A stretch of DNA of 64,000 nt, taken from the NCBI RefSeq assembly GCF_004354985.1, contig NZ_SMSK01000001.1:1116001-1180000 (forward strand), read 5' to 3'. A program made the position numbers and the translations under genes. The notes under the pieces are model-generated. The model ran no database searches. It worked only from the letters and a program-made list of their open reading frames with translations, and was not told where the DNA came from. The first letter of the stretch is position 1. Each line of letters opens with the position of its first letter. This DNA is from Segetibacter sp. 3557_3 (GTDB lineage Bacteria; Bacteroidota; Bacteroidia; Chitinophagales; Chitinophagaceae). Below, one piece after another: positions 1 to 17,999 of this stretch.

Positions 1-115
1 CAGTAAACTCGCTGAATAGCCGGAGAATAGGGTTTTAACATTATTGCTGTTAAACAAGGATCGTGGTTTGCATTATTGGTAGAATACCTTTGTTAATATA
101 AACAGGTTGATGTAA

Positions 116-520
116 GTGAAAATTCTACTCTCCATTATTGGCGTTTTTTTAGCTGGTTCAGGCTGGTCTCAAAAGATCGACAGCATTTACTTTAATCTTT
201 ATACCGATAGCCTTAAGAAAGGAGTTCACAACTACATCAATGTAGATGGCAAGCTTTCCACCGGAAGTTTTCTCCCATTAATGTCGGATGAGGTTAGCTT
301 TAGCAGTTCTGCAGGCAAGTGGGACGGCAATTCAATCATCATCGACTCCTCCTACAAATTTGACTCTGTTGTAATCAGTGTTGCATTAAAGAGTAATCCA
401 CAGGTGACAAAATCAGTCACCATCTATATCAAACGGAAAGAGACCGTTGAAGCACTTAGAACAGAACAGGAAATACTTGATGATCTTAAACGTGGTAAAA
501 AGAAGAATTTAGCGACCTGA
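116..520 (+). CDS. small secreted protein of unknown function
   Basis: 134 aa starting at GTG. Residues 1-18 form a signal peptide ending in a polar GWSQ stretch, so the mature protein is probably periplasmic or outer-membrane associated. The middle (about 25-105) alternates hydrophobic and polar residues as in a small beta-sandwich, and the last 30 residues are highly charged (lysine and glutamate rich). I recognise no family. No neighbour lies in the same direction, so context adds nothing. The GTG start is chosen because it gives a complete signal peptide. Confidence 0.55.
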   Translation: MKILLSIIGVFLAGSGWSQKIDSIYFNLYTDSLKKGVHNYINVDGKLSTGSFLPLMSDEVSFSSSAGKWDGNSIIIDSSYKFDSVVISVALKSNPQVTKSVTIYIKRKETVEALRTEQEILDDLKRGKKKNLAT

Positions 521-717
521 TATAGGTCCCTTCAATAACCGATTCTTACTACAAGTTTTCCTGGTATAAAGTCATCCTGGTTCCTGCAATCTTTTTTTTA
601 ATCAATGATAAAATGGGAATGCATCCGCGCGTAGTTATATCGCGCGAAACTAACTTGTAAGTAGGAAGATGAGTTTGAAGCTAAGGTGTACCATCGGATA
701 CCCGATGAGGTAGGGGC
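521..717. other. intergenic, no gene seen
   Basis: No coding potential visible. Two small hairpins can be drawn: CGCGCG arms near 627-645 and ATCGG/CCGAT arms near 691-704. Neither is followed by a T run in the orientation needed for a strong terminator. Confidence 0.4.
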
Positions 718-820
718 AAAAAAAATGGCAAGTTACTTACATCGCACCGCTACAACCATCTACCCTTGCTGCATTCCTGCCCTGGGGGGTTCAATAGGAG
801 CTGGTCGTATAAGACTTGCC
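718..820 (-). ncRNA. ffs: signal recognition particle RNA, small bacterial (4.5S) type
   Basis: Read on the minus strand, the 5' end (GGCAAGTCT, 820-812) pairs with the 3' end (AGTAACTTGCC, about 737-727), giving the closed rod of a small SRP RNA. The central part carries the conserved Ffh-binding signature: CAGGGC, then AGGAA, then TGCAGCAAGGGTA (about 790-765). The length of about 95 nt fits the Alu-less bacterial form. A run of T residues on the minus strand (725-718) directly follows the 3' stem and would end transcription. The RNA binds Ffh and targets nascent membrane proteins to FtsY and SecYEG. Confidence 0.9.
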
Positions 821-824
821 GCTG

Positions 825-857
825 CGAAAATAGTGGAATAGGATCAAACAAAACAAA
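825..857 (-). promoter_or_regulatory. candidate promoter of the SRP RNA
   Basis: On the minus strand a TATTTTCG box (832-825) matches the Bacteroidota -7 element TAnnTTTG with one mismatch. TTTG copies lie upstream at 857-854 and 852-849, giving spacers of 21 or 16 bp. The expected start is within a few bases of 820, which is the 5' end deduced from the SRP RNA fold. Confidence 0.55.
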
Positions 858-1124
858 GAAGTTGATTTTTATTTTATTTGTTTTTTTGAGTTTGTTTCAC
901 ACAAGTAATATACTAGTCATGTAGGACTTTGTTGTACCCGCCAAGAGCAACCCCTGGGAACATCGTTGCCCGCTGGGAGCTTTGAAACCCGAAAGCAATT
1001 TCGCAACCGAATTGATGATAACCACCGGAATGTAATCAATAACACGTACCCAGGCAAGGATCAACCATTGCATGTAATCAAGCAAGCCCCCGTTAGAAAA
1101 CCCGTTGGTGCACCACCATTGGTG
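858..1124. other. intergenic, no credible gene
   Basis: Lies between the SRP RNA promoter and the dapA terminator. A 62-codon open frame on the minus strand (1085-897) has no signal, family resemblance or start context, so it is not called. Otherwise nothing recognised. Confidence 0.4.
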
Positions 1125-1125
1125 A

Positions 1126-1152
1126 AATAAAAAAGCCGCTTGTCAGGCGGCT
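1126..1152 (-). terminator. Rho-independent terminator of dapA
   Basis: On the minus strand AGCCGC (1152-1147), a 7-base loop and GCGGCT (1139-1134) are followed by a T-rich tail to 1127. It sits only 7 bp after the dapA stop codon. Confidence 0.8.
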
Positions 1153-1158
1153 CCTAAT

Positions 1159-2043
1159 TTAGAATGTAGCGAGGTATCGTTTTACTTTATCGTGGATGTG
1201 TTCACTTAATGGAACCACCGGTAACCTGAAATGGTTTTGTATAAGTCCAAATTCGGTAAGGAATGCTTTGATGCCAGCCGGGTTATTTTCTGCGAACATG
1301 AGGTCGAAGCCTTCGAGCATTTTGTTGTGCAGGGTGCGGGATGACTTGTATTCATCTTTTAGTGAGCAGCGAACAAGCTCACTAAAGTCTTTTGGAAAAA
1401 CGTTTGCCGCAACACTGATCACACCGTCCATACCGAGCGCAATCAACGACAGGGCAAGATGATCATCTCCACTCGTGACCATGAATTCACGCGGGCGATC
1501 CCTGAGGATGTGCATACACTGTATCATGTTGCCACTCGCTTCTTTTATTCCGCTGATGTTCCCTACCTCATTTGCTAGGCGGAGTGTTGTTTCAGCAGCG
1601 ATGTTACTTCCTGTGCGGCCTGGTACATTGTATAGTATAATCGGTTTCGATGTTGCGGAAGCAAGGGCTTTATAATGCTGGAAAATGCCTTCCTGTGAGG
1701 GTTTATTGTAATATGGGCTTGCACTTAGTATAGCCGTTGCCTTGTCAAGCGGGTAAGTCTCCAAATCATTCAACAGTTCGCGGGTGTTGTTTCCACCTAA
1801 ACCAACAACCACAGGCAACCTTCCGCCAACTTTATCGTAAGTGAAGTTGATGATGTCTAACTTCTCCTGTTTATATAGGGTTGGCGTTTCGCCGGTAGTA
1901 CCCATGGTGACAACGTATTCAACACCACCACGTATAACGTACTCAATCAAATTGCCCAGCGCATCAAAATCAACCTGCTGGTTGCTCGTGAAAGGTGTAA
2001 CCAATGCAACACCGGTACCTTTCAAAGTATCTCGTAAACTCAT
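1159..2043 (-). CDS. dapA: 4-hydroxy-tetrahydrodipicolinate synthase
   Basis: 294 aa, the normal length for DapA. The enzyme condenses pyruvate with aspartate semialdehyde in the first committed step of lysine and diaminopimelate synthesis in the cytoplasm. Visible family marks are the GTTGE loop (about 48-52) carrying the threonines of the proton relay, the ASPYYNKP segment (about 108), the YNVPGRTG loop (about 137-144) with catalytic Tyr and Arg, and GIKEASGN (about 165-172) with the Schiff-base lysine. The start at 2043 gives the usual short N-terminus. accA ends only 27 bp upstream on the same strand, so accA-dapA is probably one transcript ending at the terminator downstream of dapA. Confidence 0.97.
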   Translation of the reverse strand: MSLRDTLKGTGVALVTPFTSNQQVDFDALGNLIEYVIRGGVEYVVTMGTTGETPTLYKQEKLDIINFTYDKVGGRLPVVVGLGGNNTRELLNDLETYPLDKATAILSASPYYNKPSQEGIFQHYKALASATSKPIILYNVPGRTGSNIAAETTLRLANEVGNISGIKEASGNMIQCMHILRDRPREFMVTSGDDHLALSLIALGMDGVISVAANVFPKDFSELVRCSLKDEYKSSRTLHNKMLEGFDLMFAENNPAGIKAFLTEFGLIQNHFRLPVVPLSEHIHDKVKRYLATF

Positions 2044-2070
2044 TGTATAGCTTAAAAAATGATAACTTGA

Positions 2071-3051
2071 TTATTCGGGTAACTCTTCCCAAAAGCCCAT
2101 TTTGCCAAATTTTTCGATCCGTTGATTTATGCGGTCCTGCGGATCAATTTGTTTGAGTTCGCGAATAACCGGTATGAGATAAGATCGTAAGATCGAAGAT
2201 GCTTCGTTATAATCCCAATGCGCGCCGCCAAGTGGTTCAGGAATGATGTCGTCAACCAGCCCAAAACTTTTCATGTCGGTTCCCGTTAAGCGAAGTTGTT
2301 CCGCTGCAATTTCTTTCTTTTCCCAACTTCTCCATAAGATGGTACTACAGTTTTCGGGAGAGATCACGGTGTACCAGCTGTTTTCAAGCATGAAAACGCG
2401 ATCGCCTACTCCTATGCCCAATGCGCCACCACTTGCACCTTCGCCAATGATTACGACAATAATGGGCACTTTTAGCCTTATCATCTCGTAGATGTTTCGG
2501 GCGATGGCTTCACCCTGACCCCGTTCTTCCGCTTCAAGGCCGGGGAAAGCACCGGGTGTATCAATCAACGCGATAACCGGTTTATCAAACTTTTCCGCAA
2601 GCCGCATCAGGCGTAATGCTTTGCGATAGCCTTCGGGGTTGGCCATCCCAAAGTTTCGCATTTGCCGCATCTTGGTGTTGGTACCTTTTTGTTGCCCGAT
2701 GATCATTACGGTCTCACCATTGATCTGCGCGAAGCCCCCTATCATTGCCTTATCATCCCTTACATTCCGGTCGCCATGTAGTTCCACGAAGTTCGTGCAC
2801 ATTTTTTCGATGTACTTCATGGTATACGGTCGATCCGGATGACGACTGAGCTGAACACGTTGCCATGGCGTAAGGCGTTCGGTGATTTCTTTACGCTTGT
2901 CAGCTATAGTATCATAAAGTTGGCGGATTGTAGATGAGTAGTCAACCTTTGAATTCTTTTCAGCAAGTTTCTTCGTTTGGTCAATTTGTTCGTATAACTC
3001 TTTAATCGGTCTCTCGAAATCAAGGAACTGTCTGTTCGGGTATTCAGGCAT
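2071..3051 (-). CDS. accA: acetyl-CoA carboxylase carboxyltransferase subunit alpha
   Basis: 326 aa, typical for a stand-alone AccA. It forms the carboxyltransferase with AccD and moves CO2 from carboxybiotin on AccB to acetyl-CoA, giving malonyl-CoA for fatty acid synthesis. Seen are the N-terminal helical region with FLDFERPI (about 9-16), the LSRHPDRPY linker, GDR followed by the crotonase-like core, and the [15 protein letters not shown] oxyanion-hole region (about 204-218). No zinc ribbon is present, which fits AccA rather than AccD. It is the first gene of a likely accA-dapA operon. A TATTTTTA box on the minus strand at 3077-3070 is a weak candidate promoter. Confidence 0.97.
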
Positions 3052-3106
3052 ATGCGACTGTTAAGATGGTAAAAATAAGCCTTGCATTTTTTTTATAAAA
3101 GATTTG

Positions 3107-3135
3107 TTTGAAAAAATCATTTCCCCTTATCTTTG
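3107..3135 (+). promoter_or_regulatory. promoter of the tRNA-Asp array
   Basis: TTTG at 3107-3110, a 17-bp spacer and TATCTTTG at 3128-3135 match the Bacteroidota housekeeping promoter exactly. The expected start is about 3140, giving a leader of about 25 nt before the first tRNA-like repeat. The leader contains a CCAAAAC/GTTTTGG hairpin (about 3141-3158). No comparable promoter is visible directly in front of the intact tRNA at 3497, so this one may serve the whole array. Confidence 0.75.
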
Positions 3136-3166
3136 CAATCCCAAAACGGAGGTTTTGGTTGGTTTT

Positions 3167-3496
3167 GGATCGGTAGTTCAGTTGGTTAGAATGCCGCCCT
3201 GTCATCCCCAACAGGTTGGGGACGGGTTCGAGAAAAATTAGTTCTTATTACATTTTTGAGTTTTTATATCTACCATGGATCGGTAGTTCAGTTGGTTAGA
3301 ATGCCGCCCTGTCATCCCCAACAGGTTGGGGACGGGTTCGAGAAACATTAGTTCTTATTACATTTTTGAGTTTTTATATCTACCATGGATCGGTAGTTCA
3401 GTTGGTTAGAATGCCGCCCTGTCATCCCCAACAGGTTGGGGACGGGTTCGAGAAACATTAGTTCTTATTACATTTTTGAGTTTTAATATCTACCAT
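3167..3496 (+). repeat. three tandem 110-bp copies of a broken tRNA-Asp 5' half
   Basis: Copies start at 3167, 3277 and 3387. Each begins with the first 38 nt of the intact tRNA-Asp at 3497 (acceptor 5' strand, D-arm, anticodon 5' strand and loop with GTC), perfectly matched. From there the 3' anticodon strand and variable loop are replaced by the palindrome TCCCCAAC-AG-GTTGGGGA. Part of the T-arm (CGGGTTCGAG) follows, then a 44-nt AT-rich tail ending in ATCTACCAT. Copies differ by about one base each (AAAAATTAG against AAACATTAG; TTTTTATATC against TTTTAATATC), so amplification is recent. With no 3' acceptor strand these cannot fold as tRNA. Confidence 0.9.
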
Positions 3497-3570
3497 GGAT
3501 CGGTAGTTCAGTTGGTTAGAATGCCGCCCTGTCACGGCGGAGGTCGCGGGTTCGAGTCCCGTCCGGTCCG
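3497..3570 (+). tRNA. tRNA-Asp (anticodon GTC)
   Basis: 74 nt. Acceptor strands GGATCGG and CCGGTCC pair with one G-U, and the discriminator base is G. The anticodon stem CCGCC/GGCGG closes the loop CTGTCAC with anticodon GTC. The T-arm GCGGG-TTCGAGT-CCCGT is intact. CCA is not encoded. This is the only complete tRNA gene seen in the window. It follows three pseudo-copies of its own 5' half and is followed by a terminator that runs into a GIY-YIG gene. Confidence 0.95.
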
Positions 3571-3575
3571 CTTTT

Positions 3576-3603
3576 AAGCCGCCTTATACAGGTGGCTTTT
3601 TTT
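3576..3603 (+). terminator. terminator after tRNA-Asp, abutting the next start codon
   Basis: AAGCCGCC (3576-3583), loop TTATACA and GGTGGCTT (3591-3598), then T residues to 3603. The ATG of the GIY-YIG gene starts at 3604, directly after the T run. Confidence 0.8.
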
Positions 3604-3867
3604 ATGCCCTTTTACGTCTATATCATACAAAGTCAAAAAGACCTCTCCTACTATAAAGGTTTTACAGAAGATCCTGTTCTTAGATTGCAACGACACAATA
3701 GTGGTGAGTCTGCTTACACCCGACATAAGATGCCATGGAAGCTTGTTTACCTTGAGATACTGCACACAAAAAAAGATGCGCTTATACGGGAGAAGGTGTT
3801 AAAGAAATACAGCCATGAGCAGATTGAGCAGTTGATCACTTCGAAATTAAATTCGATCAATGATTAG
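3604..3867 (+). CDS. small GIY-YIG nuclease family protein, copy 1
   Basis: 87 aa, essentially one GIY-YIG domain of the UPF0213/YhbQ size class. The first motif reads VYI (about 4-6) and the second YKG (about 18-20). The catalytic-type Arg lies in RLQRHN (about 27-32) and the metal-ligand Glu in IREKVLKKY (about 60-68). It should be a magnesium-dependent DNA nuclease, substrate unknown. The ATG follows the T run of the tRNA-Asp terminator, leaving no room for a ribosome-binding site. An in-frame GTG at 3592 lies inside the terminator stem. The TAG stop (3865-3867) is supplied by a tRNA-Asp D-arm remnant (TTAGAATGCCG). It is first of three tandem paralogues. Confidence 0.8.
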   Translation: MPFYVYIIQSQKDLSYYKGFTEDPVLRLQRHNSGESAYTRHKMPWKLVYLEILHTKKDALIREKVLKKYSHEQIEQLITSKLNSIND

Positions 3868-3925
3868 AATGCCGCCCTGTCATCCCCAACCCTGTTGGGG
3901 ACGGGTTCGAGTCCCGTCCGGTCCG
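3865..3925 (+). pseudogene. tRNA-Asp remnant 2 (D-arm to 3' end, anticodon arm replaced)
   Basis: The segment begins inside the D-arm with TTAGAATGCCGCCCTGTCA and carries the palindrome TCCCCAAC-CCT-GTTGGGGA in place of the 3' anticodon strand. It then has a complete T-arm and 3' acceptor strand, CGGGTTCGAGTCCCG and CCGGTCCG. The acceptor 5' strand is missing, so it cannot be a working tRNA. It joins GIY-YIG copy 1 to the second terminator. Confidence 0.85.
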
Positions 3926-3930
3926 CTTTT

Positions 3931-3958
3931 AAGCCGCCTTATACAGGTGGCTTTTTTT
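3931..3958 (+). terminator. second copy of the tRNA-Asp terminator
   Basis: Same hairpin as at 3576 (AAGCCGCC, loop TTATACA, GGTGGCTT) and T run, again directly followed by an ATG. The copies lie 355 bp apart. Confidence 0.75.
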
Positions 3959-4231
3959 ATGCCCTTTTACGTCTATATTATACAAAGTCAAAAAGATTTC
4001 TCCTACTATAAAGGTTTTACCCAAGATCCTGGTCTTAGATTGGAAAGACATAATAGTGATGAGTCTGCTTACACCCGACATAAGATGCCATGGAAGCTTG
4101 TTTACCTGGAAATATTGCACTCAAAAAAAGATGCGCTTATACGGGAGAAGGTGTTAAAGAAATACAGTCATGAACAGATGGAGCAGTTGATCAATTCATC
4201 GCTGAACGCAATGGATAGGTCAGTTGGTTAG
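3959..4231 (+). CDS. small GIY-YIG nuclease family protein, copy 2
   Basis: 90 aa, nearly identical to copy 1 over the domain (VYI, YKG, RLERHN, IREKVLKKY), so catalytic-type residues are kept. The frame is open upstream to 3860 through the tRNA remnant and terminator, but the ATG at 3959 matches the start of the other two copies and is preferred. The last five residues (DRSVG) and the TAG stop (4229-4231) are encoded by the next tRNA-Asp remnant, GGATAGGTCAGTTGGTTAG. Tandem duplication of a tRNA-tail plus nuclease unit is the simplest explanation. Confidence 0.8.
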   Translation: MPFYVYIIQSQKDFSYYKGFTQDPGLRLERHNSDESAYTRHKMPWKLVYLEILHSKKDALIREKVLKKYSHEQMEQLINSSLNAMDRSVG

Positions 4232-4290
4232 CATGCCGCTCCTGTCATCCCCAACGGGGTTGGGTACCCATTCGAGTCCCGTCCGGTCCG
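4213..4290 (+). pseudogene. tRNA-Asp remnant 3 (nearly full length, degenerate)
   Basis: Starts GGATAGGTCAGTTGGTTAG, a shortened version of the tRNA-Asp 5' end, then CATGCCGCTCCTGTCA. The decayed palindrome TCCCCAAC-GGG-GTTGGGTA follows, then an altered T-stem and an intact TTCGAGTCCCGTCCGGTCCG end. It cannot form an anticodon stem. It overlaps the end of GIY-YIG copy 2 by 19 bp. Confidence 0.85.
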
Positions 4291-4295
4291 CTTTT

Positions 4296-4323
4296 AAGCC
4301 GCCTTATACAGGTGGCTTTTTTT
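4296..4323 (+). terminator. third copy of the tRNA-Asp terminator
   Basis: Identical hairpin and T run to those at 3576 and 3931, 365 bp after the second. It also abuts an ATG (4324). Confidence 0.75.
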
Positions 4324-4620
4324 ATGTCCTTTTACGTCTATATCATACAAAGTCAAAAAGACCTCTCCTACTATAAAGGTTTTACCGAAGATCCTGGTCT
4401 TAGATTGGAAAGACATAACCGTGGCGAGTCAACTTACACCCGTAAGGAAGTACCCTGGAAGCTTGTTTACCTTGAAATACGGCCCACAAAAAAAGATGCA
4501 CTCATACGCGAGAAGGTGGTGAAGAAGTACAGTCATGAACAGATACTACAGCTGATCAATTCATCACCCAACCTCGCGGGTTCAGTCAAAATTAGTGTCG
4601 TCTGGGGCACCATCGAATAA
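4324..4620 (+). CDS. small GIY-YIG nuclease family protein, copy 3
   Basis: 98 aa. The most diverged of the three, but it keeps VYI, YKG, RLERHN and IREKVVKKY. The C-terminus departs from copies 1 and 2 after about residue 80. Bases 4574-4587 (TCGCGGGTTCAGTC) resemble the tRNA-Asp T-arm, so the tail is read out of a short tRNA remnant and beyond to a TAA. This marks the downstream end of the array. Confidence 0.75.
   Translation: MSFYVYIIQSQKDLSYYKGFTEDPGLRLERHNRGESTYTRKEVPWKLVYLEIRPTKKDALIREKVVKKYSHEQILQLINSSPNLAGSVKISVVWGTIE
4574..4587 (+). pseudogene. possible terminal tRNA-Asp T-arm remnant
   Basis: TCGCGGGTTCAGTC matches the tRNA T-arm TCGCGGGTTCGAGTC apart from one missing base. It lies inside the 3' end of GIY-YIG copy 3, at the place where the earlier copies run into tRNA sequence. 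Confidence 0.45.
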
Positions 4621-4826
4621 CGTGCTGCACCGAATACCCAATTAACACCTCTGATCAGCATGCCCATATGCCTGATGTACTTTAAAAATTCTAATGGTAG
4701 TTTAACTGTTCTAAGCTAAGCTCAAAAATCAGCAAGAAATTAAACTGGTTGATGTTGTCGATCTTTGAGGCCAACATACGGACGCATCCTATACCATGTT
4801 CAACCAATAATATATGTTATAGCCCC

Positions 4827-5738
4827 TTAATTTGAAACTTGCCGATGATTATCCATGATGGTTAATCCGTCGGCGTGGTTTTGGTTGGGCTTATATGCAG
4901 CTGGAACAATAAGCAGAGGAATGGTGGTAACATACGACATCGCCCTTGTGAAACTCTTTGAGAATAGCTTTTGCAGATAGGTTTTATTTCTTCTGACCAT
5001 CACCATAGTATCGTAAGGAACTTCTCTACTAAGGTTTTCAATTGTTTCTTCCACGGAATCGGTCAGTATTGGCTTGAATGCTATCTGGCAAGAACTAAAT
5101 AATTTCTTGATGTGATCAGCAAACCTTTGAAAAAATCCCATTTCTATTTTCAGGGAATCTCGTGTTGCAGTAAGCTCAAAAAAATGGACGACTGTTATGC
5201 CTGCTTCGTATATCTTAGCAAATTCGATGGCAAGCTGCAATGCATGGAGCTCGGAAAAATCGTAATTCGTGGCGAACACGATATCGCGCGGATCCTTCCA
5301 CTCAAACTTTTCAGGTATCAGCAGCACCGGAACTGGGCTTTCTCCGGCGATACGCGAAGCTTCTGAACCCACCAATACCTTCTTTAGTCCGCTGGCACCT
5401 TGGGTGCCCATTGTAATCAGGTCAATTTCGTTTTGTCGGGCAAAACTCAGGATGCTTCCTGTCAAAGGCGAACGGGCAACAATGGTTTCTATTGCGATGG
5501 AACATGGCTCTCCGGCAACCTTCTTCTTTAAACGTTGTAAACGCTTTAATGCCTTATCCTTCATTTGAGCATTGTAGATGCGCCGATCTTGTTCCACACC
5601 AATAAATGTACTGTTTACCGGCGTGTACACGTGATACAAAACAATTGCTCCATCAACTTTCAACGCAAGATTTACTGCGAACCGGAAAGCTTTCTCCGCC
5701 GTTTGCGAAAAATCTGTTGGAACGAGTATTTTTTTCAT
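4827..5738 (-). CDS. universal stress protein, tandem UspA domains
   Basis: 303 aa with two UspA-type Rossmann domains, about 1-143 and 150-283. The first has the classical start KKILVPTDFSQTAEKA and a complete ATP-binding G-2x-G-9x-G-S signature (GTQGASG through VGSEAS, about 114-130). The second domain (DIVFATNYDF and onward) lacks that signature, so only the first half is expected to bind ATP. The family is cytoplasmic and helps survival under energy, oxygen or nutrient stress. It is the last of three usp genes on this strand within 4 kb, separated by gaps of hundreds of bases, so they may be separately transcribed. Confidence 0.9.
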   Translation of the reverse strand: MKKILVPTDFSQTAEKAFRFAVNLALKVDGAIVLYHVYTPVNSTFIGVEQDRRIYNAQMKDKALKRLQRLKKKVAGEPCSIAIETIVARSPLTGSILSFARQNEIDLITMGTQGASGLKKVLVGSEASRIAGESPVPVLLIPEKFEWKDPRDIVFATNYDFSELHALQLAIEFAKIYEAGITVVHFFELTATRDSLKIEMGFFQRFADHIKKLFSSCQIAFKPILTDSVEETIENLSREVPYDTMVMVRRNKTYLQKLFSKSFTRAMSYVTTIPLLIVPAAYKPNQNHADGLTIMDNHRQVSN

Positions 5739-5933
5739 AACTAATATATTTGTGATTCAGAAAACGACTAAGGAGAATAATTAATGATTCGCTTTCTAAC
5801 AATGACCTTCTTACAATACGGTTACCTGTCAAAATACGCGGATGCTGTCTAATGCAAAACACTGATCAATTAGAGAATATCTGTGGAAAACCCTATTTAA
5901 TACTAGCAACTCAAGCCGTCTTTAAACGTCCAT

Positions 5934-6773
5934 TTACTTATTGTGTGCAACGAAAATAGGCATATCCAACTCCCTCATCAATACATCAGCCATACTCATC
6001 TTAAACCATCGGCTCATCTCCGTACGCCGATAAGCGCCTAGCACTACCAATTCATTTTGCTCGTGATTTCTTAAATGACCAAGTATCTGTTCCTCCGGAT
6101 CTCCTTTCGTCACGGTGAAAACGGCATCTGGAAACTGCCTTTTGATAAATTCTCTCATCTTTCTATTGCCGGGAAGATGAAGATCTTCCAGGTCATTCTT
6201 GACGGTAAAAACCTCCACAGGCATATGCGGGAGTGCACAGAAGAGATAATTATACATTTTGATGGCGTATAAAGACGATGGTGCACCATCATAAAGCAAA
6301 ACGATCTTATCTATGATCTTAAAATCATTAGGCGTTACCAGTACGGGACACTGAACATCGCCCAAAAGCTCCTTAATAAACCGGGTTGGAGGCTCTTCTT
6401 TGTGCCTGGTGAATGTTTCATATTCGTTGATGAAAATCAGGTCGGCAAACATGCTCTCTTCCTTGAGCTCCTGCAAGGCGATGTTTTTATCCCGATGAAT
6501 GGAACAGTGTATTCCGGCTTTACTACATGCCATTTGAAAAACCCGTACGGCTTCATCCCTTTTGTGATGATCTTCCTCGTCGAGCTTTGCCATTACCTTT
6601 TCATAATCGTTACCGGATTCCATAACAGCAGCAACATTATAGCTCCGGTATATAAACTCATCCAGAAAAACACCGACTAAATGAGCGTTTACGGCCTTTG
6701 ATAATTGAATTGCATACTGCAGCGTAGAATCGCACATTTTATATCCGTCAAATACGGCTAGAAACTTTTTCAT
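5934..6773 (-). CDS. universal stress protein family, second copy
   Basis: 279 aa with two UspA-like halves. The N-terminus KKFLAVFDGYKMCDSTLQYA is the family start with phosphate-loop residues altered. The second half starts around residue 150 (KIVLLYDGAPSSLYA) and ends GAYRRTEMSR through PIFVAHNK. The final G-2x-G is degenerate (GAYR), so this is probably a non-ATP-binding UspA-type protein. It resembles the gene at 7845 more than the one at 4827. The window gives no direct function. Confidence 0.85.
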   Translation of the reverse strand: MKKFLAVFDGYKMCDSTLQYAIQLSKAVNAHLVGVFLDEFIYRSYNVAAVMESGNDYEKVMAKLDEEDHHKRDEAVRVFQMACSKAGIHCSIHRDKNIALQELKEESMFADLIFINEYETFTRHKEEPPTRFIKELLGDVQCPVLVTPNDFKIIDKIVLLYDGAPSSLYAIKMYNYLFCALPHMPVEVFTVKNDLEDLHLPGNRKMREFIKRQFPDAVFTVTKGDPEEQILGHLRNHEQNELVVLGAYRRTEMSRWFKMSMADVLMRELDMPIFVAHNK

Positions 6774-7205
6774 TGTCTTATGCTAATGATTTAAATAAGC
6801 GTTGTCTGAATAGAAAATAATTCCTTTAAATCTCGTTCTTGATAATGAGCCAAATTAGGTACAGTTTCCGCCTAATTACATGATTGGCGTCACCTGGTAA
6901 AATGATCCTCAACGCCACATTGATAGTAGAACGTTTTCGACTTTCAGCTCCTGAAATCAGGTGTTGATTGCCTTACGTGCACAGTAGTTTTCTCGTGCTC
7001 GTCAAACTCCATTTGTCGGCTACCTTATCAGGTCACCCGAGCTTAAGATAAAGCCGGATACTGATCAGTAACATACGTGGCAACTGGGCTTCGCCAATAC
7101 AGGCTCCAATGGCGATACGTGTGAAAGTATCTATAATTACATTCTTGTCTCTGTGATAATGTATGCAAATCAACCTGTATCGTTTGTGCACCAAACCAAT
7201 GTATC
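6774..7205. other. intergenic, no gene seen
   Basis: 432 bp between the second usp gene and the flavodoxin-like gene. A 68-codon minus-strand frame (7249-7043) overlaps the end of the next gene and has biased composition, so it is not called. A GGCGTCA/TGAGGATC region near 6886-6915 could be an operator but is not clear. Confidence 0.3.
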
Positions 7206-7808
7206 TCACGGTGTAACATAAGGGTCGTGGTTCGCATGGCCGGCTGCAATCGACTGCCCTAATGCATATGCCTGAGAAACCGCAACATCAACATTTGACT
7301 TACTGCTTTGCTCATTATTGGGACGCCAAAGCCAAAACGCTTTTGATACAACAACGTGTCCGCCAGATCGGGCGATCAGCCGTTCAAAGTACTCCTGAGA
7401 AGCTTCGGTTGACCCCGCGCCAAGTGTAATAGCTACAACGGGCTTATTGTGCAGCGAATGTTTGCGCAGCAGCCCCGCGACTGACCAATCCGGTCGCCAG
7501 TTATATGTATTAGCGCAAAAAACATAGAGTGTATACTGGTCAAAAGAGTCAGGGCTTGCGGCAACCGACACCAGGTCGACAGCAAATTCATGGGTAGCCA
7601 GCGCTTTCGCAATAGAGCTGCAAACCTTTGCATCCAGATCGTAAAATGGATCAGGATCATAAACAACTAGTACCCTTGTCTTACTGGAACGATTACCCAG
7701 TTGAACAAACCGGGCTGAACCGGTACGTTCGGCCCACAAGGTGAGTATTCCCCAGCTTAAGCCAATTATCGCGGTAATAACAATCAACCTCCGAAGAAGT
7801 ATTTTCAT
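7206..7808 (-). CDS. membrane-anchored flavodoxin-like protein
   Basis: 200 aa. An N-terminal membrane segment (about 7-26) is followed by a flavodoxin-like alpha/beta domain. A first beta strand RVLVVYD (about 44-50) leads into a helix, then LYVFCANTYNWRP (about 92-104) where flavodoxins bind the FMN ring, and a third strand KPVVAITLGAGS (about 121-132). The usual T/S-x-T phosphate loop is not present in classical form (DPDPFYD instead), so FMN binding is uncertain. It lies between two usp genes, suggesting a shared stress or redox role. The function is inferred from fold only. Confidence 0.6.
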   Translation of the reverse strand: MKILLRRLIVITAIIGLSWGILTLWAERTGSARFVQLGNRSSKTRVLVVYDPDPFYDLDAKVCSSIAKALATHEFAVDLVSVAASPDSFDQYTLYVFCANTYNWRPDWSVAGLLRKHSLHNKPVVAITLGAGSTEASQEYFERLIARSGGHVVVSKAFWLWRPNNEQSSKSNVDVAVSQAYALGQSIAAGHANHDPYVTP

Positions 7809-7844
7809 GATGCTGAATTCGAAGAATTGTAAAAAAAGATGAAG

Positions 7845-8681
7845 TTATCTATGACAAATGAAAACAGGTAACAGGTGCTCCCGAACCGGGTCGGTCACAA
7901 AACTTCTTTTTATAAATTGCGAGATTATCGAGCGACCATAAGCACCACTGACTAAAATCGAAGACAAACTGTTTTCAAGCCATGTCCCAAAATGCAAAGC
8001 GGGATCGATGTTCAACTTAAAAAAAGTAAGATGAACATAATGCTGTGTAGCAAGTTCTTCAATAAAATCCATTTCGGGAATTTCCTTGCTTTCATCTGGT
8101 TGTACATAAACCAACATTGTCGGGTTTCGGGCGAGTTCAGGAAAAATGTAAGCGAATTGTTTGATGGCAAATGCAGACTCAGAACTACCATCGTAAGCCA
8201 GAATATTATACTGTGGAAAGTCATATGCTTCGGGAACAACTACTACCGGGCATTCTGACGTATGTAGTGTGTCCGTAAGATAAGTAAACCGTTGCTGGCG
8301 CGGCAGTTGATTGAGAAACAATTGCTCCCCTAAAACCATGACATCCGAAAAACGCGTCTCCTTTTTCAAGTCGCGAAATGGGAAACTGGAGCAATCATTA
8401 TGCAGCCGGTATTTTAGTAAATTTTGCTCACAGTGCTGTTTAAACCGAAGCTTGTTTGCGTTCATTGCGGCTTCGTCATCATTGTCTGGCGCGGGTAAAA
8501 AAACGCCCGCTTCACCAGGGTTCCCAAGTGCAAAAGCAGACCATTGTTTTGTATCATCAACACGGGGCATACAAACCGCCGTTGCAAGCACCGGCTGTAA
8601 TGCGTTTAATCCTGCAACAAAGCGAAGTGCACCTTCCGAATAATTTGGCCCATCAAAAACAATCAATACTTTTTTCATCAA
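7845..8681 (-). CDS. universal stress protein family, third copy
   Basis: 278 aa with two UspA-like halves. The N-terminus is KKVLIVFDGPNYSEGALRF, the second half begins near residue 155 (NILAYDGSSESAFAIKQFA), and the end is GAYGRSIISQF through PVFICHR. The G-2x-G-9x-G-S motif is partly kept, but the third Gly is replaced by Arg (KRS), so ATP binding is doubtful. It is the first of the three usp genes in transcription order and lies 36 bp upstream of the flavodoxin-like gene, so the two are probably co-transcribed. Confidence 0.85.
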   Translation of the reverse strand: MMKKVLIVFDGPNYSEGALRFVAGLNALQPVLATAVCMPRVDDTKQWSAFALGNPGEAGVFLPAPDNDDEAAMNANKLRFKQHCEQNLLKYRLHNDCSSFPFRDLKKETRFSDVMVLGEQLFLNQLPRQQRFTYLTDTLHTSECPVVVVPEAYDFPQYNILAYDGSSESAFAIKQFAYIFPELARNPTMLVYVQPDESKEIPEMDFIEELATQHYVHLTFFKLNIDPALHFGTWLENSLSSILVSGAYGRSIISQFIKRSFVTDPVREHLLPVFICHR

Positions 8682-9480
8682 TCTATTTTTATCAAGAATA
8701 AGCGAACAATATTTCCACTATGAGGGACAACCGGTTTGTTTATGATTATGATCAGTCTGGAACATGATGCTTACCAGGGCTGCGTGCCAACTGGCATCAA
8801 CAGGACAATGTATACGAGCTTATGCCGAACTTCCCACATTATAATCTGAGAAACGGATGCAGGCGCGCAATAAAGCTTTGTGCAATGGCAATTTTCTACC
8901 GGTCTTATTATTTAACCCGTTATTCCTGAAAAGGGTACGGTTTTAAAGTGCGAAGCTTCCTGGCAATTCCTGTTTTAGATTCTTTCGTCAAAATAATTGA
9001 ACTCCGGACTCAAATATAATGATGTACGTCACTGGTATGCCTGACGCGTAGCAGCTCGCATATACATGAGTTTACCTGAAACTCTTCAGCGTTCACTCCG
9101 GTACATTATAGGGCGTCCGGGCGGGCTATTCCCGTCCGACTGTGTTAACGGGGCTTATACAACCACAAGGGCAATGGTAAGAATAAGAACATCGGAAACT
9201 CAGCGTTAAATTGAGCTACACTTGCTCCAAATCGGCGCCTTAGAGGTATCCAGATAGAATTGGTGTTAGCGAACTTATATCCGTGAATTGCCCGCCCGGT
9301 AATGCAGTTTTATGGGCTTACTTACCGGGCAGCCGGGCACATCACTAAGTCACAATAAATCTCATGATATTTTATAAATTGTTGCAGCCGCGGGTTGAGC
9401 ACAATCAGCCGTCACGATAACTATAGTCAGTAATTTTCAATAGTCTCCACGGTACTTTAGCATAAACAACACCAGGCGTC
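8682..9480. other. long intergenic region, no gene seen
   Basis: About 800 bp. There is no open frame with coding character. Small inverted repeats are present: GGGCGGG-CTATT-CCCGTCC near 9120-9137 and GCCCGCCCGGTAA paired with TTACCGGGCAGCCGGGC near 9290-9336. These could be structured RNA or terminator-like DNA, but I recognise no named RNA family. Confidence 0.35.
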
Positions 9481-10173
9481 ATGAAAAGAAGTTTACACCT
9501 ACTCTTGTGTATGGCAATTTTTGCAAATGCTGCACATAGCCAGCAGCTTGAAGGTATCGGTGCCACAGTTATGGCGGGACATCAAAACGCCCGTTCCTCC
9601 GCCAACCATCTCCTTCAGCTTTCGCCACAAGGAATAAACGGATTTACCGACAACTATAGAAGTGTTGGCATTGAAGGTTTTTACCGCAAAGGGCGTGATG
9701 TATATGCTACGGAGTTGACCTTTAACTGGCAACAGCGGCATCATTCAGGTATCCAATATGCCGAACCGATTTTTAATTCAATAAGACTAAAGTATGGGTA
9801 CATCATAAACAACAATAGCAAGGTGTTAATATACCCGACGTTTGCAGCGGGCGCAACCAAGTTCCTGCTCTCAACCTACTCTTTTGAAAACTTCAAGATG
9901 CTTAATTTGAGCGAAAAATCTCTGGCCATTCCATCATTTGCAATCGGCATCAGCACTGACGTACTTCTATCCCCTTTCAACCACGCTGAACGGTATTACC
10001 TTGGATGGATCGCCGGGCTGAAAGCTGGATATAATTTTAGCCTTCAATCCAAAAAATGGATGATGGAAAGCAGCCGTATCGCAGGTCCCCCATATGCAAC
10101 CCGTGGCTTTTACGTTTCCCTGGCATTCGGGGCGGGTAGTTTCGACTTTGTCAACTCCGGCAAAAACCCATAA
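9481..10173 (+). CDS. secreted, probably outer-membrane beta-barrel type protein of unknown function
   Basis: 230 aa. The signal peptide (1-20, ending NAAHS) is followed by alternating amphipathic strands, rich in aromatic residues and glycine. They end in a strand with a terminal aromatic (GFYVSLAFGAGSFDFV), as in small outer-membrane barrels. Segments such as IRLKYGYIINNNSKVLIYPTF look like hairpin strands. No catalytic motif is seen. It lies alone on the plus strand. Confidence 0.55.
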   Translation: MKRSLHLLLCMAIFANAAHSQQLEGIGATVMAGHQNARSSANHLLQLSPQGINGFTDNYRSVGIEGFYRKGRDVYATELTFNWQQRHHSGIQYAEPIFNSIRLKYGYIINNNSKVLIYPTFAAGATKFLLSTYSFENFKMLNLSEKSLAIPSFAIGISTDVLLSPFNHAERYYLGWIAGLKAGYNFSLQSKKWMMESSRIAGPPYATRGFYVSLAFGAGSFDFVNSGKNP

Positions 10174-10232
10174 GCAGCAAAATCTAACTGTAATCAAGGA
10201 TAATAAAGGTGATCATAATATGCAGAAGCCAT

Positions 10233-10580
10233 TCAATTGCTTCCGAACAGTGGCACAATATCCTGCATGCTGCTTCTAATCATATACATCCAAATGTCAG
10301 GATAATTGTAATACAAGGGGAGCAATTCAAATTCAAGTAGATCGTATAAAGCCCCTGCATCCTGATCATCCTGCAATTCATCCGGAAAGCAACAATCAGC
10401 GGATGGCAATACAAAGCTGTTGTTCCGATCTATAGCAAATTCTGGAAACCAGCCGTCCGGGATGACCATTCATTGCTGCCGACATTCCACTGGTCCCGGA
10501 AGCTTCGAGTGTCCGGCGCGGCAGGTTGAGCCAAACATCCGCCCCTGCTTTCATCTTTCTTGATAATGCCAATTTATTGC
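10233..10580 (-). pseudogene. alpha-glucan phosphorylase (GT35) C-terminal remnant
   Basis: Two minus-strand frames together match the C-terminal part of glycogen/alpha-glucan phosphorylases. The first frame (from about 10575) reads [11 protein letters not shown], then [19 protein letters not shown], the hallmark pyridoxal phosphate region. After a frameshift and a loss of about 10 nt near 10450, the second frame reads [27 protein letters not shown] and LLPLYYNYPDIW. The N-terminal two thirds are missing. The upstream break falls next to a dispersed repeat (10627-10655). It is a dead fragment. Confidence 0.8.
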
Positions 10581-10626
10581 CAGTGGTGGCAGCTATAACA
10601 GAGAAGCTGGCGCTCCCCAAAGATTT

Positions 10627-10690
10627 GCCGATGAACGGAATGCGACGCAACGATGCCAAATGGATGAACCAATGCCCGTACCAAAAGAAT
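10627..10690. repeat. dispersed repeat containing GGAATGCGACGCAAC
   Basis: GATGAACGGAATGCGACGCAAC here recurs exactly at 47951-47972, and both are followed within 50 bp by a similar AATGCCCGTA(G)CCAAAA stretch. The reverse complement core CATCGTTGCGTCGCA also occurs at 29206-29220 and 58875-58889. It borders the phosphorylase remnant. Confidence 0.7.
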
Positions 10691-10699
10691 TGGCTTTGT

Positions 10700-11180
10700 T
10701 ATTTCTTTTGAAACAGGAAATTGTATATCGGCTGGAAAATGTTCATTACTGTTGCATGAACAATGTATTAGGCATTCCACTTTGTTTCATAGTGCGGTAC
10801 AGAATTGCTGCTTTTTGCGATACACACCTAAACATGAGTGAACACACAAATGATAACTCGTTGGGTAATTTATGTAATTTGACATCTTCCATAATTAGCT
10901 GCTCCCACTTTAATTGCCTCTGTACAAGCAGGGGGAAAGAATAAATTGGATTACATCAATTAACGTTGTTACGATCACCAGGTTACCTGTTTAACATCCT
11001 TCAATTGTTTAAATTAATTAGTAACATTTACAACCTCTGTTCCGATGAGCTTAAGGCGGGTGTACTTAAGTTGGAGGTTTGCTGTGGCAAAGATGCACTC
11101 CCGATAAAATAGAGGAGAAATATAATTCACATGTAAATTAATTGTATGAAAACAATACAAGCCCTTTCAAATTGACTGCG
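10700..11180. other. intergenic, no gene seen
   Basis: AT-rich. Open frames on the plus strand (for example 10660-10944) have no family resemblance and overlap the repeat, so they are not called. Confidence 0.35.
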
Positions 11181-12263
11181 TTACTGAATATTATATTGTA
11201 CATCCTTAAGGTAGAACTTTCCATAGGTAAATTTCCCGTCGGGGTAATGCCAGACTGCCTCGCCATAACCGGGCAGATTAAATCCATTGATCGTCTTGTA
11301 GTCGCTCACCGGTGTTGAAAACCGGTACTTCCGTTTTTCGGCGATGGCATACCGGTCATCAGATACAAAGTCAACGAGTTGACCATGATCATTAAAATAC
11401 AATGTTGCTGAGACGGTATTTTCCTTTACAGTGTATGTTGCGTTTACAGCGTTTTCACTGAGCTGCTCCCATTTAATGGAGGGGTCAATCAGCGATGCCG
11501 GCGCCATCAGACACATATCGTTGAAGATCGTAACGGTTTCAGCCTTGTTCAGAACACCGGTAGTTTCATTCACAATAGGAAACAAACCAAACAACTTAAT
11601 TTGCATGCTGGCGTTCCCGTTTTTATAGGCATGGTAGCCGGGTACCGTTACACCAAACATAGTACCCTTCATAAAGAAAAGTCGTGTGGGCCGATCGACA
11701 AAATTGTATTGCTCAGAGGTAAACGGAAACCAATCTTTACCCTTGTCGCGCATCTCGCCCCGAAAGATAATTTTATAGTTGTACACCTTTGGCTTGTTAA
11801 TCACGCCTACATATCGCAGGTAGCGTTGTACAGCCGGAGGAAGGTGATCTAAATCTCTTTCAATCAGCAGGTTTGCGGTGGCTGGGAGCCCTTTAGTATT
11901 TTCCGCCACATCGCGTTTGTATGTGCGCTCAAATATCCAGGTTCCAATGGTCAGAACAGCAGCTACTGCGATGATCACGTTGGCAATGGTGCCGAACTTT
12001 GCATCGCTCCACACCCCGATAATCAGTAGCTGTGAAATCACGGCGGCGGGTAGTAATATCATCCACCAGCTTTCTTTCTTCAACAGAAAAAGCAAAGCGC
12101 CGGCAAGGAAAAGAAGAGCTGCAATTAGCCATAAAATACCTGCCTGCCTTGAGATTGGCCTGGTAAGCTGGGTGATATTACCGTACTGGTAGGCCTTTGC
12201 AAACCCCATGAAATGGATTAACCCGTGTAGTGTAATGATCAACAAAAAGAGCATGCGTAACAT
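11181..12263 (-). CDS. conserved membrane protein, DUF6544/DUF6920-like
   Basis: 360 aa. The first about 115 residues hold four hydrophobic segments (about 1-20, 38-60, 68-85, 92-110). A soluble domain follows, beginning with the line DLDHLPPAVQRYLRYVGV, which I associate with the DUF6544/DUF6920 type of uncharacterised protein. The soluble part is beta-rich and contains GLFPIV, MAPASLIDPSI and a C-terminal GYGEAVWHYPDG. Function unknown. The family name is from memory of the motif. Confidence 0.6.
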   Translation of the reverse strand: MLRMLFLLIITLHGLIHFMGFAKAYQYGNITQLTRPISRQAGILWLIAALLFLAGALLFLLKKESWWMILLPAAVISQLLIIGVWSDAKFGTIANVIIAVAAVLTIGTWIFERTYKRDVAENTKGLPATANLLIERDLDHLPPAVQRYLRYVGVINKPKVYNYKIIFRGEMRDKGKDWFPFTSEQYNFVDRPTRLFFMKGTMFGVTVPGYHAYKNGNASMQIKLFGLFPIVNETTGVLNKAETVTIFNDMCLMAPASLIDPSIKWEQLSENAVNATYTVKENTVSATLYFNDHGQLVDFVSDDRYAIAEKRKYRFSTPVSDYKTINGFNLPGYGEAVWHYPDGKFTYGKFYLKDVQYNIQ

Positions 12264-12639
12264 AATTAGTAGTGGTTTATCTCAGCGTATTGCCAGCCTG
12301 GTTTATAGTCAACAACATTCAAAAGGTTTGTTTAATAAGGACGACAACCATAAAAAAATAAAAGGCATATCAAAGGGTATAATTAAGGAGTCTTTGCAAC
12401 GATCACTTGATCTTCTAATCTTAAACTTCCAGGGCTGTGTGTATATCCTGAGGGTGTCTTGTGGCGGAATATATCGGTCGGCTGGAAGGTGGCGGCATAG
12501 CAAAGCTTTTATCAAATGTGCTACAATTGATGTGGAATTCAGGTGATGGCAATCATTGTAAAAGCTGATTTATCGCAGGGCGAAGCAATAAGCTTATTTG
12601 CATTATAAAAGCATTTGATTGCAGAGGCCGAAGGCGACC
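12264..12639. other. intergenic, no gene seen
   Basis: No credible frame. Plus- and minus-strand frames at 12208-12546 run into the start of the upstream gene and look random. Confidence 0.3.
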
Positions 12640-12796
12640 AATTCAGAACTTATTATTATCACTGAATGAAGGCTATGTCTTGCATAAAAAAAGCTGTGAA
12701 AATCTTCCGAACAACAAGCCCGCGCTCGTATTCTACGACACCGGATGTCCTGTGCGTTTCGTTATAATAAATTTTGGTCCCGAATTAACTGCTTAA
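12640..12796 (+). pseudogene. possible thioredoxin-like fragment
   Basis: One plus-strand frame reads LSLNEGYVLHK, then NKPALVFYDTGCPV and stops soon after. The KPALVFYDTGCPVC-like stretch resembles the strand and active site of Bacteroidota TlpA/thioredoxin-like proteins, but the second Cys is lost and there is no start or full fold. Treated as a weak remnant. Confidence 0.25.
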
Positions 12797-12998
12797 GTAA
12801 AGAAATCAAATCTCTAACTAAAGAAGCGATCATATGTGAGAAGCACTTGAAGACTGCAGTTCGTCATAATACCGTGTAGAATTATAAATTACACCTCAAA
12901 CATTACCATGGCGGGTGCATGTTATGCATAAAGGAAAACATAGAACATTCTTTTGCTACACAAGAAAATTATGTACGCAATTATTCTAAAACAAACCC
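12797..12998. other. intergenic, no gene seen
   Basis: AT-rich stretch downstream of the CRTAC1-type gene. No clear terminator hairpin was recognised. Confidence 0.3.
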
Positions 12999-14894: not shown

Positions 14895-14941
14895 TGTTAA
14901 TCTTTAACCTTTATGATCGATGCGCCCTGGCGACAGGGTCT

Positions 14942-16495: not shown

Positions 16496-17464
16496 TTTAA
16501 TTTGATTTAGATGGTCATTTCAAGAATGAATAAGATGTGGCTGGCTAACAGGTTGTTGTTTCAAGATTGATCATTCTCAAGTAAAATTTATTTATCTGGG
16601 CTGCGCGCATATGTGGTCGGCCGATAAGCCTTCTAATAATTAAATGATTATTTACGCTGCCGTAGGGCTCATGCAATTAAGTCCTTTAAATTCAACAAAT
16701 CAAAGTTCGCAGGCTGGATTCTTTGGGACGATCATATACTTATCCTAATTATATCAAGGGGATTCGCAACTTTTCCTCCTGCTTATTTTGATGCTGATGC
16801 GTTAGAAGTTTGTTAGCTCTAACCGGGTTATTGCTTTTGTAAATTATTGCCCCTAACAACTTTCAGGCAGATCGCCCCTCAGCATGGCTTAGCCCGGCGT
16901 ATGCAGCAGCGCATTACGGCTGCCGAGCAATTAAACAAATGCTGACTATACGAGATTGATGCAATAATCTCAGCCATAGTCGCTGTTTTTACTCATAGTG
17001 CCACTTGATTGTCAATCACCGTTATCACAACTGCGGTCGGCCCTGGAATCGTCGCTGAGCACAGGATTAGTATCAAAGAAGCCACCTGAGGTTTGCCCAA
17101 ACAGCAGTGAAATCTCAATAGAACCATACTAACCGCAGTGCTTACTAGCTTGAATTTCCGGGCATAAGTGAACCCGGCAGTACATAAGAACCTGTATCTG
17201 TTTGTAAGCTGGTCAAACCCGCTTATCTTAGCACAGGTAGCTGTCAGAGCTGGAGTGGATATATCGTGGGAAAAGGACCAGCTATAATGGATGGCAAGCT
17301 CTTGATCCCTTATGCCATCGGATCTTGTGAAGTTTAACTCGAGCCTTCATTTTTAAAGCGAATGGTGTTACAACTATAGAATACATTCACGCTGTTGTTC
17401 AGGCCGAAATCACCAGTAACAACAGCAAGTTTCTCATTATTACTAAACCTACAAATTGTTGAAC
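16496..17464. other. long intergenic region with possible remnant
   Basis: About 970 bp with no intact gene. Near 17211-17335 one plus frame reads KPAYLSTGSCQSWSGY, then MDGKLLIPYAIGSCEV and stop. This resembles the end of a glycosidase-like beta-propeller, but it has no start and is preceded by stops, so it is at most a fragment of unknown origin. Confidence 0.3.
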
Positions 17465-17743: not shown

Positions 17744-17968
17744 TTCAATGTCGTTTACTTAAGAGAAATCTTTGGTGACCAGCTGTGGGAATTCTATTTG
17801 CCATCGTTGCCCGCCCGGATGAACCCCGTTCGGACGGGTGTCACTCCCTTGTACCGCATCGCTTTATTTACCGATTTCTGCCACTCACCTTAAGTAAACG
17901 ATATTGAATCTTAATTAACGGTTTTACACCCACACCACTTTCGTGAGCTTCCTTATCACCCTCAGCAA
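17744..17968. other. intergenic with palindrome
   Basis: A GC-rich inverted repeat CCCGCCCGGATGAA...CGTTCGGACGGG lies near 17810-17838. No gene. Confidence 0.35.
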
Positions 17969-17999
17969 CAAAAAACCCGTCTAAAACGGGTTTTTTGTT
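17969..17999. terminator. bidirectional Rho-independent terminator
   Basis: AAAAAACCCGT, loop CTAA, ACGGGTTTTTT. A perfect stem with A and T runs on both sides lets it serve the plus-strand gene at 17465 and the minus-strand bestrophin gene at 18255. Confidence 0.85.

Follow-up and report, generated by a model that had tools for sequence, protein, structure and literature searches.

SegB of phages T4 and T6 is a free-standing GIY-YIG homing endonuclease that cuts within tRNA genes and, in the passages of that work available to us, is required for the tandem amplification of tRNA-Tyr together with its own gene (PMC13096335). Mobile open reading frames (ORFs) of fungal mitochondria have been described in Allomyces atp6 and in Glomus atp6, atp9, cox2 and nad3, the atp9 case being a GIY-YIG one; as far as the accessible text goes, the endonuclease gene enters another gene and supplies it with a substitute 3' end, so that the gene stays functional, and the native one remains downstream (PMC3630166). 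Here we describe a 64,000-nt stretch of Segetibacter sp. 3557_3 (GCF_004354985.1, NZ_SMSK01000001.1, positions 1,116,001-1,180,000 of the forward strand; hereafter the window, in whose positions coordinates are given), in which positions 3167-4620 of the + strand hold an array of tRNA-Asp pieces and small GIY-YIG nuclease genes around one intact tRNA-Asp. We propose that this array is probably a homing-like GIY-YIG element, specific for a tRNA gene, which restores an intact tRNA, leaves behind a hairpin-broken copy and amplifies in tandem. By analogy, SegB may be regarded as its nearest biochemical precedent and the fungal mobile ORFs as its architectural precedent. The likeness to SegB lies in a GIY-YIG nuclease gene next to tRNA genes and in tandem amplification; SegB, however, is phage-borne, is reported to lack isotype preference and, in the available passages, is not linked with hairpin-broken tRNA copies (PMC13096335), whereas the elements considered here are chromosomal, mostly encode proteins of 80-100 amino acids (aa) and follow tRNA isotype, the known likeness of the proteins being the GIY-YIG domain only. 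The fungal ORFs differ in occupying mitochondrial protein genes, and neither a tRNA target nor palindromes in the pieces figure in the passages seen (PMC3630166). A 2006 survey of the GIY-YIG family mentions tRNA three times in the portion available, in other contexts (PMC1564403), and among titles and abstract openings (subscription papers and preprints lying outside the scope) we found no report of chromosomal tRNA-linked GIY-YIG elements.

On the + strand the array runs from three 110-bp units containing the 5' part of tRNA-Asp, through the intact tRNA-Asp, to three units spaced 355 and 365 bp apart, each made of a tRNA 3' end, a terminator and a GIY-YIG ORF (Table 1). An earlier reading of this DNA from its letters alone (the sequence-only reading) had described this layout, and ARAGORN, Rfam and Pfam bear it out. 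The copies of the 110-bp unit are 99% alike, and the tRNA-Asp at 3497-3571 is the sole full-length match to tRNA-Asp found in the genome. The same reading held that all tRNA pieces are broken at one place on the 3' side of the anticodon loop, which is right as to where the tRNA sequence stops and wrong as to what happens there. The last base before the interruption is indeed position 38, at the end of GTCA, but positions 39-50 have given way to a perfect, GC-rich inverted repeat in each of the three 5' units and in 3' remnant 1, after which the tRNA resumes at 51. The 5' units terminate within the T loop (..GGTTCGAG, position 60), and the 3' remnants reach the tRNA end, the second of them (4216-4291) being more decayed than the first.

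All three ORFs match the Pfam GIY-YIG family (PF01541) at E 2.4e-15 to 7.7e-14, with 52-57 bits against a curated cut-off of 22.6. As had been noted from the sequence, the catalytic-type residues are kept in all three nucleases: in an alignment of six copies, three from the window and three others from the same genome, Y3, Y5, Y16, R26, H30 and E62 are invariant, as is, among other positions, G18. We take the catalytic roles of the conserved Tyr, Arg, His and Glu to be those of the GIY-YIG family. Over 300 nt of DNA, gene copy 2 shares 88% identity with copy 1 and likewise with copy 3, and protein 1 shares 85% identity with protein 2 and 79% with protein 3; the genes are under purifying selection, with a ratio of nonsynonymous to synonymous substitution rates (dN/dS) of 0.15-0.23 over 84 codons. 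Given this divergence and dN/dS, the copies are neither assembly duplicates nor decayed. The nearest solved structures by sequence are the UPF0213 proteins PDB 1zg2 (E 4.2e-13) and 1ywl (E 1.7e-12), which are themselves annotated as hypothetical proteins.

The association of the nuclease with a neighbouring tRNA is real and widespread. A protein search at E 1e-3 of 59 genomes, namely Segetibacter sp. 3557_3 and 58 relatives, gave 93 matches spread over 33 of the 59. The flanking DNA of all 93 was scanned for tRNAs and remnants, and each was classed by an intact tRNA within 500 bp, failing that by a remnant within 150 bp, and failing that as having neither. An intact tRNA lies within 500 bp of 58 of the 93 (median distance 49.5 bp; 53 of 86 when Segetibacter sp. 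3557_3 is set aside), and 9 have a remnant only. The nearest tRNA is on the same strand as the nuclease gene in 58 of the 58 linked cases, with the gene after the tRNA in 41 and before it in 17. Together with the isotype tracking described below, this linkage and shared strand strongly support the earlier proposal of a tRNA-linked duplicating element that spares one functional tRNA. Presence of the nuclease is patchy, even inside one genus. In a search of the phylum, 96 of 395 genomes had a match at E 1e-10, and among the best 29 new loci, which were those examined, an intact tRNA lay within 500 bp at 20 and a remnant only at 4. In the set genome_contigs a tRNA was found within 500 bp at 22 of the 31 loci examined, several of those without one being cut by contig ends; this set places the element also in metagenome-assembled genomes (MAGs) named Deltaproteobacteria, Nitrospirota and candidate phyla, the last bearing names that we take to denote Patescibacteria. 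At 20 loci without an intact tRNA, Rfam gave no match to other RNA genes at gathering scores.

The sequence-only reading had named nuclease genes at unrelated, remnant-free sites as the observation that would speak against it. We find none among the seven matches to the window nuclease in its own genome: all seven sit at three tRNA loci, four of them outside the window at two loci. At the tRNA-Arg(cct) locus three tandem nuclease units lie downstream of the tRNA, units 2 and 3 each following a tRNA copy that has a 32-nt hairpin inserted between the variable loop and the T stem. Decay is visible in this array, in which the end of copy 1 is out of frame relative to copy 2 and copy 3 is shortened, and an extra decayed copy lies about 1 kb beyond. 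At the tRNA-Ser/tRNA-Pro locus the tRNAs are followed by two 114-bp broken tRNA-Pro units and one nuclease gene, with two further, more diverged units downstream. For five of the seven matches an intact tRNA is no more than 500 bp away; the other two, each the third copy of its array, lie farther off. With 39 tRNAs in the genome and uniform positions assumed, three independent loci would all lie 500 bp or less from a tRNA with a probability of about 2.4e-7.

Branches of the enzyme family tend to stay with one kind of tRNA, on a tree that is weakly resolved. The tree holds 138 of 153 protein rows, labelled by nearest tRNA (104 labelled, 34 unlabelled); four short rows (L041, L043, G045:C442, G058:C2) were omitted, as were 11 extra copies less than 1.5 kb from a kept one, of which G043:C9:90922 stands at a different tRNA. 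For the 103 linked rows whose isotype is named, the label changes 41 times, against a shuffled mean of 67.3. The corresponding figures are 37 against 53.2 excluding Asp rows, 37 against 58.8 with intact-tRNA labels only, and 24 against 40.6 when only rows of the relatives are counted (23 against 36.7 excluding Asp); in every test 0 of 300 shuffles, which ignore near-copies, were as low as observed. An earlier figure of 52 changes against 91.7 had the unlinked proteins as a separate label. Clustering is clear for Asp, Arg, Met, Asn, Ser and Val and weak for Pro, Ala, Glu and Leu. The Asp group, whose members include MAGs named Deltaproteobacteria and Nitrospirota, is over-represented because the sets were selected by similarity to an Asp-linked query. 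Of the 34 unlabelled proteins, 21 form one clade (support 81) with zero tRNA-linked members, against an intact tRNA within 500 bp for 88 of 117 proteins outside it, a contrast whose Fisher value of 2e-11 is not a fair test since the clade was picked from the tree post hoc. By its motifs, this clade may be nearer to typical UPF0213/YhbQ proteins.

The broken tRNA copies are further marked by hairpins. At loci that have an intact tRNA no farther than 800 bp away, counting distinct sequences with gaps of 10-40 nt and loops of 3-9 nt, 56 of 79 gaps contain a perfect inverted repeat whose arms measure 6 bp or more, where letter shuffles expect 1.4, and 34 of 79 have arms of at least 7 bp, where shuffles expect 0.3. 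Across isotypes the hairpins sit in the D loop, the anticodon arm or the T loop. The earlier suggestion that the nuclease cuts at the anticodon region of tRNA-Asp remains conjectural: the breaks are hairpin replacements, those of other isotypes are not confined to that arm, and the 5' units of the window end in the T loop instead of the anticodon loop. At Arg-linked loci of genomes G023 and G043 a 20-nt palindrome lies exactly between tRNA positions 22 and 23, with no loss of tRNA sequence. Among 21 hand-collected Asp hairpins, pairing over the six outer pairs is 0.984 against 0.820 shuffled, with three pairs invariant, in a set that was anchored on the outer bases. Certain palindromes are shared by loci of one isotype across genomes (Met, Ser, Arg and Asn), and two of these types are also dispersed elsewhere in the genomes that carry them. 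By nuclease clade, CCTGCCTG..CAGGCAGG hairpins occur in several members of an Arg/Leu/Glu clade of nucleases, and TCCGCCAG..GGCGGA in a Met clade.

The position of the leftover tRNA pieces has a polarity. An element that supplies its own tRNA half should leave a 3' piece downstream when its gene follows the tRNA and a 5' piece upstream when its gene precedes it. With lenient cut-offs, pieces of at least 12 nt and no shuffled control, a 3' piece lies downstream at 42 of the 73 loci whose nuclease gene follows the tRNA but at 2 of the 22 whose gene precedes it, and a 5' piece lies upstream at 12 of these 22 and 17 of those 73, the 17 including arrays with 5' units such as that in the window. Several of the 5' units that extend to the T arm end in the T loop or at its edge (besides those of the window, at GGTTCGAG in L022 and L051, and at position 60 in G022, 61 in G044 and 63 in G055); other 5' pieces end earlier. 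The SegB motif RAWTSGAAC (PMC13096335), which on the other strand is GTTCSAWTY, would resemble the T-loop sequence at which the 5' units of the window end, tRNA-Asp differing from it at one base. As for alleles that lack the element, nine same-genus genomes have tRNA-Asp behind accA as in the window, judged by eye, and zero nuclease matches there; the presumed target is thus occupied in the window and the nuclease is absent from related tRNA-Asp alleles, as in homing endonucleases. Across 30 tRNA-Asp loci, remnants are present at 2 of 2 with the nuclease, one being that of the window, and fragments at 3 of 28 without it, two of which are only 15-18 nt.

These observations suggest that a selfish element that resides on tRNA genes while sparing the tRNA has gone largely unrecognised, and that the array in the window would be a tandemly amplified copy of it. 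By analogy it may be placed, as a putative member, among the free-standing homing nucleases. Its single gene would encode a small GIY-YIG nuclease that cuts one particular tRNA gene in alleles free of the element; the putative cut regions are those where the copies are broken, namely the D loop, anticodon arm and T loop. Donor-templated repair would then fill in the tRNA half that is missing, along with the terminator and the nuclease gene, so that the upstream tRNA is restored intact and the displaced part, now bearing a GC-rich hairpin, remains as a second tRNA copy; the 5' form would have this order mirrored. The two tRNA copies may act as homology arms, in which case conserved flanks would be unnecessary and the element could pass between distant bacteria that share the same tRNA. 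The hairpin probably renders the leftover tRNA copy uncuttable, and recutting of the intact copy followed by unequal repair could yield tandem arrays on either side.

Several points weigh against this proposal. Cutting and movement are inferred and neither was observed; no recent insertion was caught between near-identical strains; and the donor's intact tRNA seems cuttable, which leaves self-protection unexplained. Nuclease genes at sites of the kind that the sequence-only reading had named as adverse may occur more widely than in the genome of the window: 26 of the 93 matches lack both an intact tRNA up to 500 bp away and any remnant detected up to 150 bp away. The separate clade accounts for 20 of these 26, and another is copy 3 of the window array itself, which stands 759 bp off the tRNA. 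Of the 73 loci in the 3' form 31 lack the expected leftover, as do 10 of the 22 in the 5' form, again with lenient cut-offs and no shuffled control. In three of the nine same-genus genomes (G001, G004 and G007) contigs end less than 300 bp from tRNA-Asp, so that the absence of the nuclease there rests on the genome-wide search, and another same-genus genome, G002 (L051), has a hairpin-bearing tRNA-Asp 5' half upstream with no adjoining nuclease gene and a different hairpin sequence. Among the 79 gaps of the hairpin count, those within one array are not independent of each other. The tree has 86 columns only and half of its forks are open, Phe and Lys show no clustering, and the Asp label alone requires 9 changes. 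Lastly, many loci lie on MAG contigs, where binning errors can assign the wrong host.

The broken tRNA copies might instead be attachment (att) scars: integrative elements that use a tyrosine recombinase enter tRNA genes at the 3' end and leave a partial tRNA copy behind, and the nuclease gene would be leftover cargo between two att sites. Phage-integrase genes stand behind tRNA-Asp in two same-genus genomes (L064 1740-2888 and L065 1734-3074), so this site is used by integrating elements. Neither the six proteins neighbouring the array (four of the DHDPS, AccA and Usp families and two matchless) nor the GIY-YIG ORFs include an integrase, however, and att scars would not explain the upstream 5' pieces, the genes before the tRNA, the hairpins within the pieces or the lineages that follow isotype; nor do they sit well with the scarcity of fragments at tRNA-Asp loci that lack the nuclease. 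We consider this account very unlikely. We give still less credence to the view that the nuclease is a host gene of repair or defence type, read through from strong tRNA promoters, with the tRNA copies a by-product of local duplication. Purifying selection and the position of the gene close behind the tRNA on the same strand are what such a gene would show, but this account gives no role to the within-genus patchiness, the decayed tandem copies, the isotype lineages or the hairpin-bearing tRNA copies.

A further alternative gives the palindromes the leading part. In REP/RAYT systems (repetitive extragenic palindromes, REPs, and REP-associated tyrosine transposases, RAYTs), as here, short dispersed palindromes are apparently tied to a nuclease lineage, and in the passages available RAYTs are HUH tyrosine transposases whose REPs are GTAG-tagged (PMC3733652). 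The protein here is GIY-YIG, and the common palindromes, unlike REPs, start TCCC, TCTC or CCTG, none of those listed beginning with GTAG; membership of that class was accordingly rejected. In a looser likeness, the nuclease might recognise its own GC-rich palindrome, with tRNA remnants and intergenic sites alike as landing places. This would fit hairpins that recur by nuclease clade, and CCTGCCTGnnnGCAGGCAGG is present in 8 of the 59 genomes, 6 of 9 with the Arg/Leu/Glu clade against 2 of 50 without (Fisher 5e-5), a test that is partly circular because the CCTGCCTG pattern was derived from loci of G003, G023, G028 and G043 that already contain it. Clade genomes not used in choosing that pattern give a mixed result: G049 has sites, G016 one imperfect site and G053 none, and the clade members of G000 and G053 bear different hairpins. 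Just two genomes, G040 and G043, each with a Met-clade gene, have Met-type palindromes at three sites or more; the Met test is nevertheless weaker, with any site in 3 of 7 Met-clade genomes against 5 of 52 others and the G040 gene labelled Glu through a weak remnant match. The genome of the window itself has 116 CCCGYCCG..CGGRCGGG palindromes (control pattern 0), including the hairpins of the Arg array, but many palindromes may predate the nuclease as host repeats. We judge it quite unlikely that palindromes rather than tRNA genes are the primary target. A related and more inclusive idea is that each lineage of these minimal nucleases is dedicated to one isotype and a cognate palindrome, and that it spreads by way of tRNA genes while seeding the palindrome genome-wide, as a GIY-YIG counterpart of REP/RAYT; we put this forward tentatively and hold it to be rather doubtful. 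Two observations on palindromes may be recorded here: one of the 116 lies at 17810-17838 of the window, and eleven CCTGCCTG-type palindromes cluster in about 32 kb at G023:C2:1200428-1232722.

Other candidates were rejected. A group I intron is not compatible with a contiguous tRNA, and Rfam at gathering scores over window positions 1-20000 finds only tRNA and signal recognition particle (SRP) RNA. The diverged copies, and the same design in numerous independent assemblies, make it unlikely that an assembly error, which the sequence-only reading had allowed for, created the repeats. A tyrosine-recombinase integrative element was set aside on the absence of an integrase noted above. Phages or plasmids as the main vehicle were rejected on matches in 18 of 50,697 phage records and 4 of 72,556 plasmids; around the one phage match inspected of the 18 (H1) no tRNA gene is annotated for about 2.5 kb, and viral contigs scanned with alignment A1 gave 49 pattern matches and zero confirmed relatives.

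Table 1. Features of the tRNA-Asp/GIY-YIG array and its upstream flank (window positions)
Feature	Position	Strand	Remarks
TATCTTTG, -7-promoter-box-like sequence	3128-3135	+	Upstream of all 5' units
5' unit 1	3167-3276	+	tRNA-Asp positions 1-38 and 51-60 on either side of an 18-nt hairpin, then a 44-nt AT-rich spacer
Perfect hairpin TCCCCAAC-AG-GTTGGGGA	3205-3222	+	Replaces tRNA positions 39-50; recurs at 3315-3332 and 3425-3442
5' unit 2	3277-3386	+	Built like 5' unit 1
5' unit 3	3387-3496	+	Built like 5' unit 1
Intact tRNA-Asp(gtc)	3497-3571	+	ARAGORN; Rfam tRNA 68.1 bits
Terminator-like hairpin and T run	3572-3603	+	Copies at 3927-3958 and 4292-4323
GIY-YIG gene 1	3604-3867	+	87 aa; ATG at 3604; stop overlaps next tRNA remnant
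3' remnant 1	3864-3926	+	tRNA positions 20-38, 19-nt hairpin (3883-3901), positions 51-75
GIY-YIG gene 2	3959-4231	+	ATG at 3959
3' remnant 2	4216-4291	+	tRNA positions 8-38, imperfect hairpin, positions 55-75
GIY-YIG gene 3	4324-4620	+	ATG at 4324
Possible last remnant CGGGTTCAGTCAAAATTAGT	4577-4596	+	80% identical to 5'-unit junction; short, may be chance

The only TAnnTTTG on the + strand within 3001-3700 is TATCTTTG; we take this motif to be the Bacteroidota -7 promoter box, and TATCTTTG would presumably act as a promoter. Since this box precedes the first 5' unit, the genome's one full-length tRNA-Asp may derive from a transcript whose leader carries three hairpin-bearing half tRNAs. RNA folding of five single-strand stretches, the intact tRNA included, gave weak and mixed z values of -0.4 to -2.8. 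We note that in the ORFs at 3860-4231 of the window and 2720-3085 of L008 the nuclease frame continues open upstream across the tRNA remnant and terminator, and the start of such long chimeric nuclease ORFs may be mis-annotated. Elsewhere in the window, a Bacteroidales small SRP RNA lies at 722-828 on the - strand (RF04183, 104 bits), and downstream of the array, at 4827-8681, are two universal-stress-protein genes followed by two genes without a Pfam match (E 1e-5).

If the homing-like interpretation is correct, the array represents a very small selfish element, one gene of about 80-100 codons, that exploits highly conserved genes in several phyla and would have solved the main problem of such a parasite, as the host receives an intact tRNA every time. 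It would account for the recurrent tRNA fragments next to tRNA genes and possibly for intergenic palindromes in Bacteroidota; were the REP/RAYT-like GIY-YIG system also real, it would be a source of abundant intergenic palindromes in this phylum. Because the lineages are mostly single-isotype, the family would hold many small nucleases with distinct natural specificities, and would raise the question of how a single-domain GIY-YIG protein discriminates among tRNA genes.

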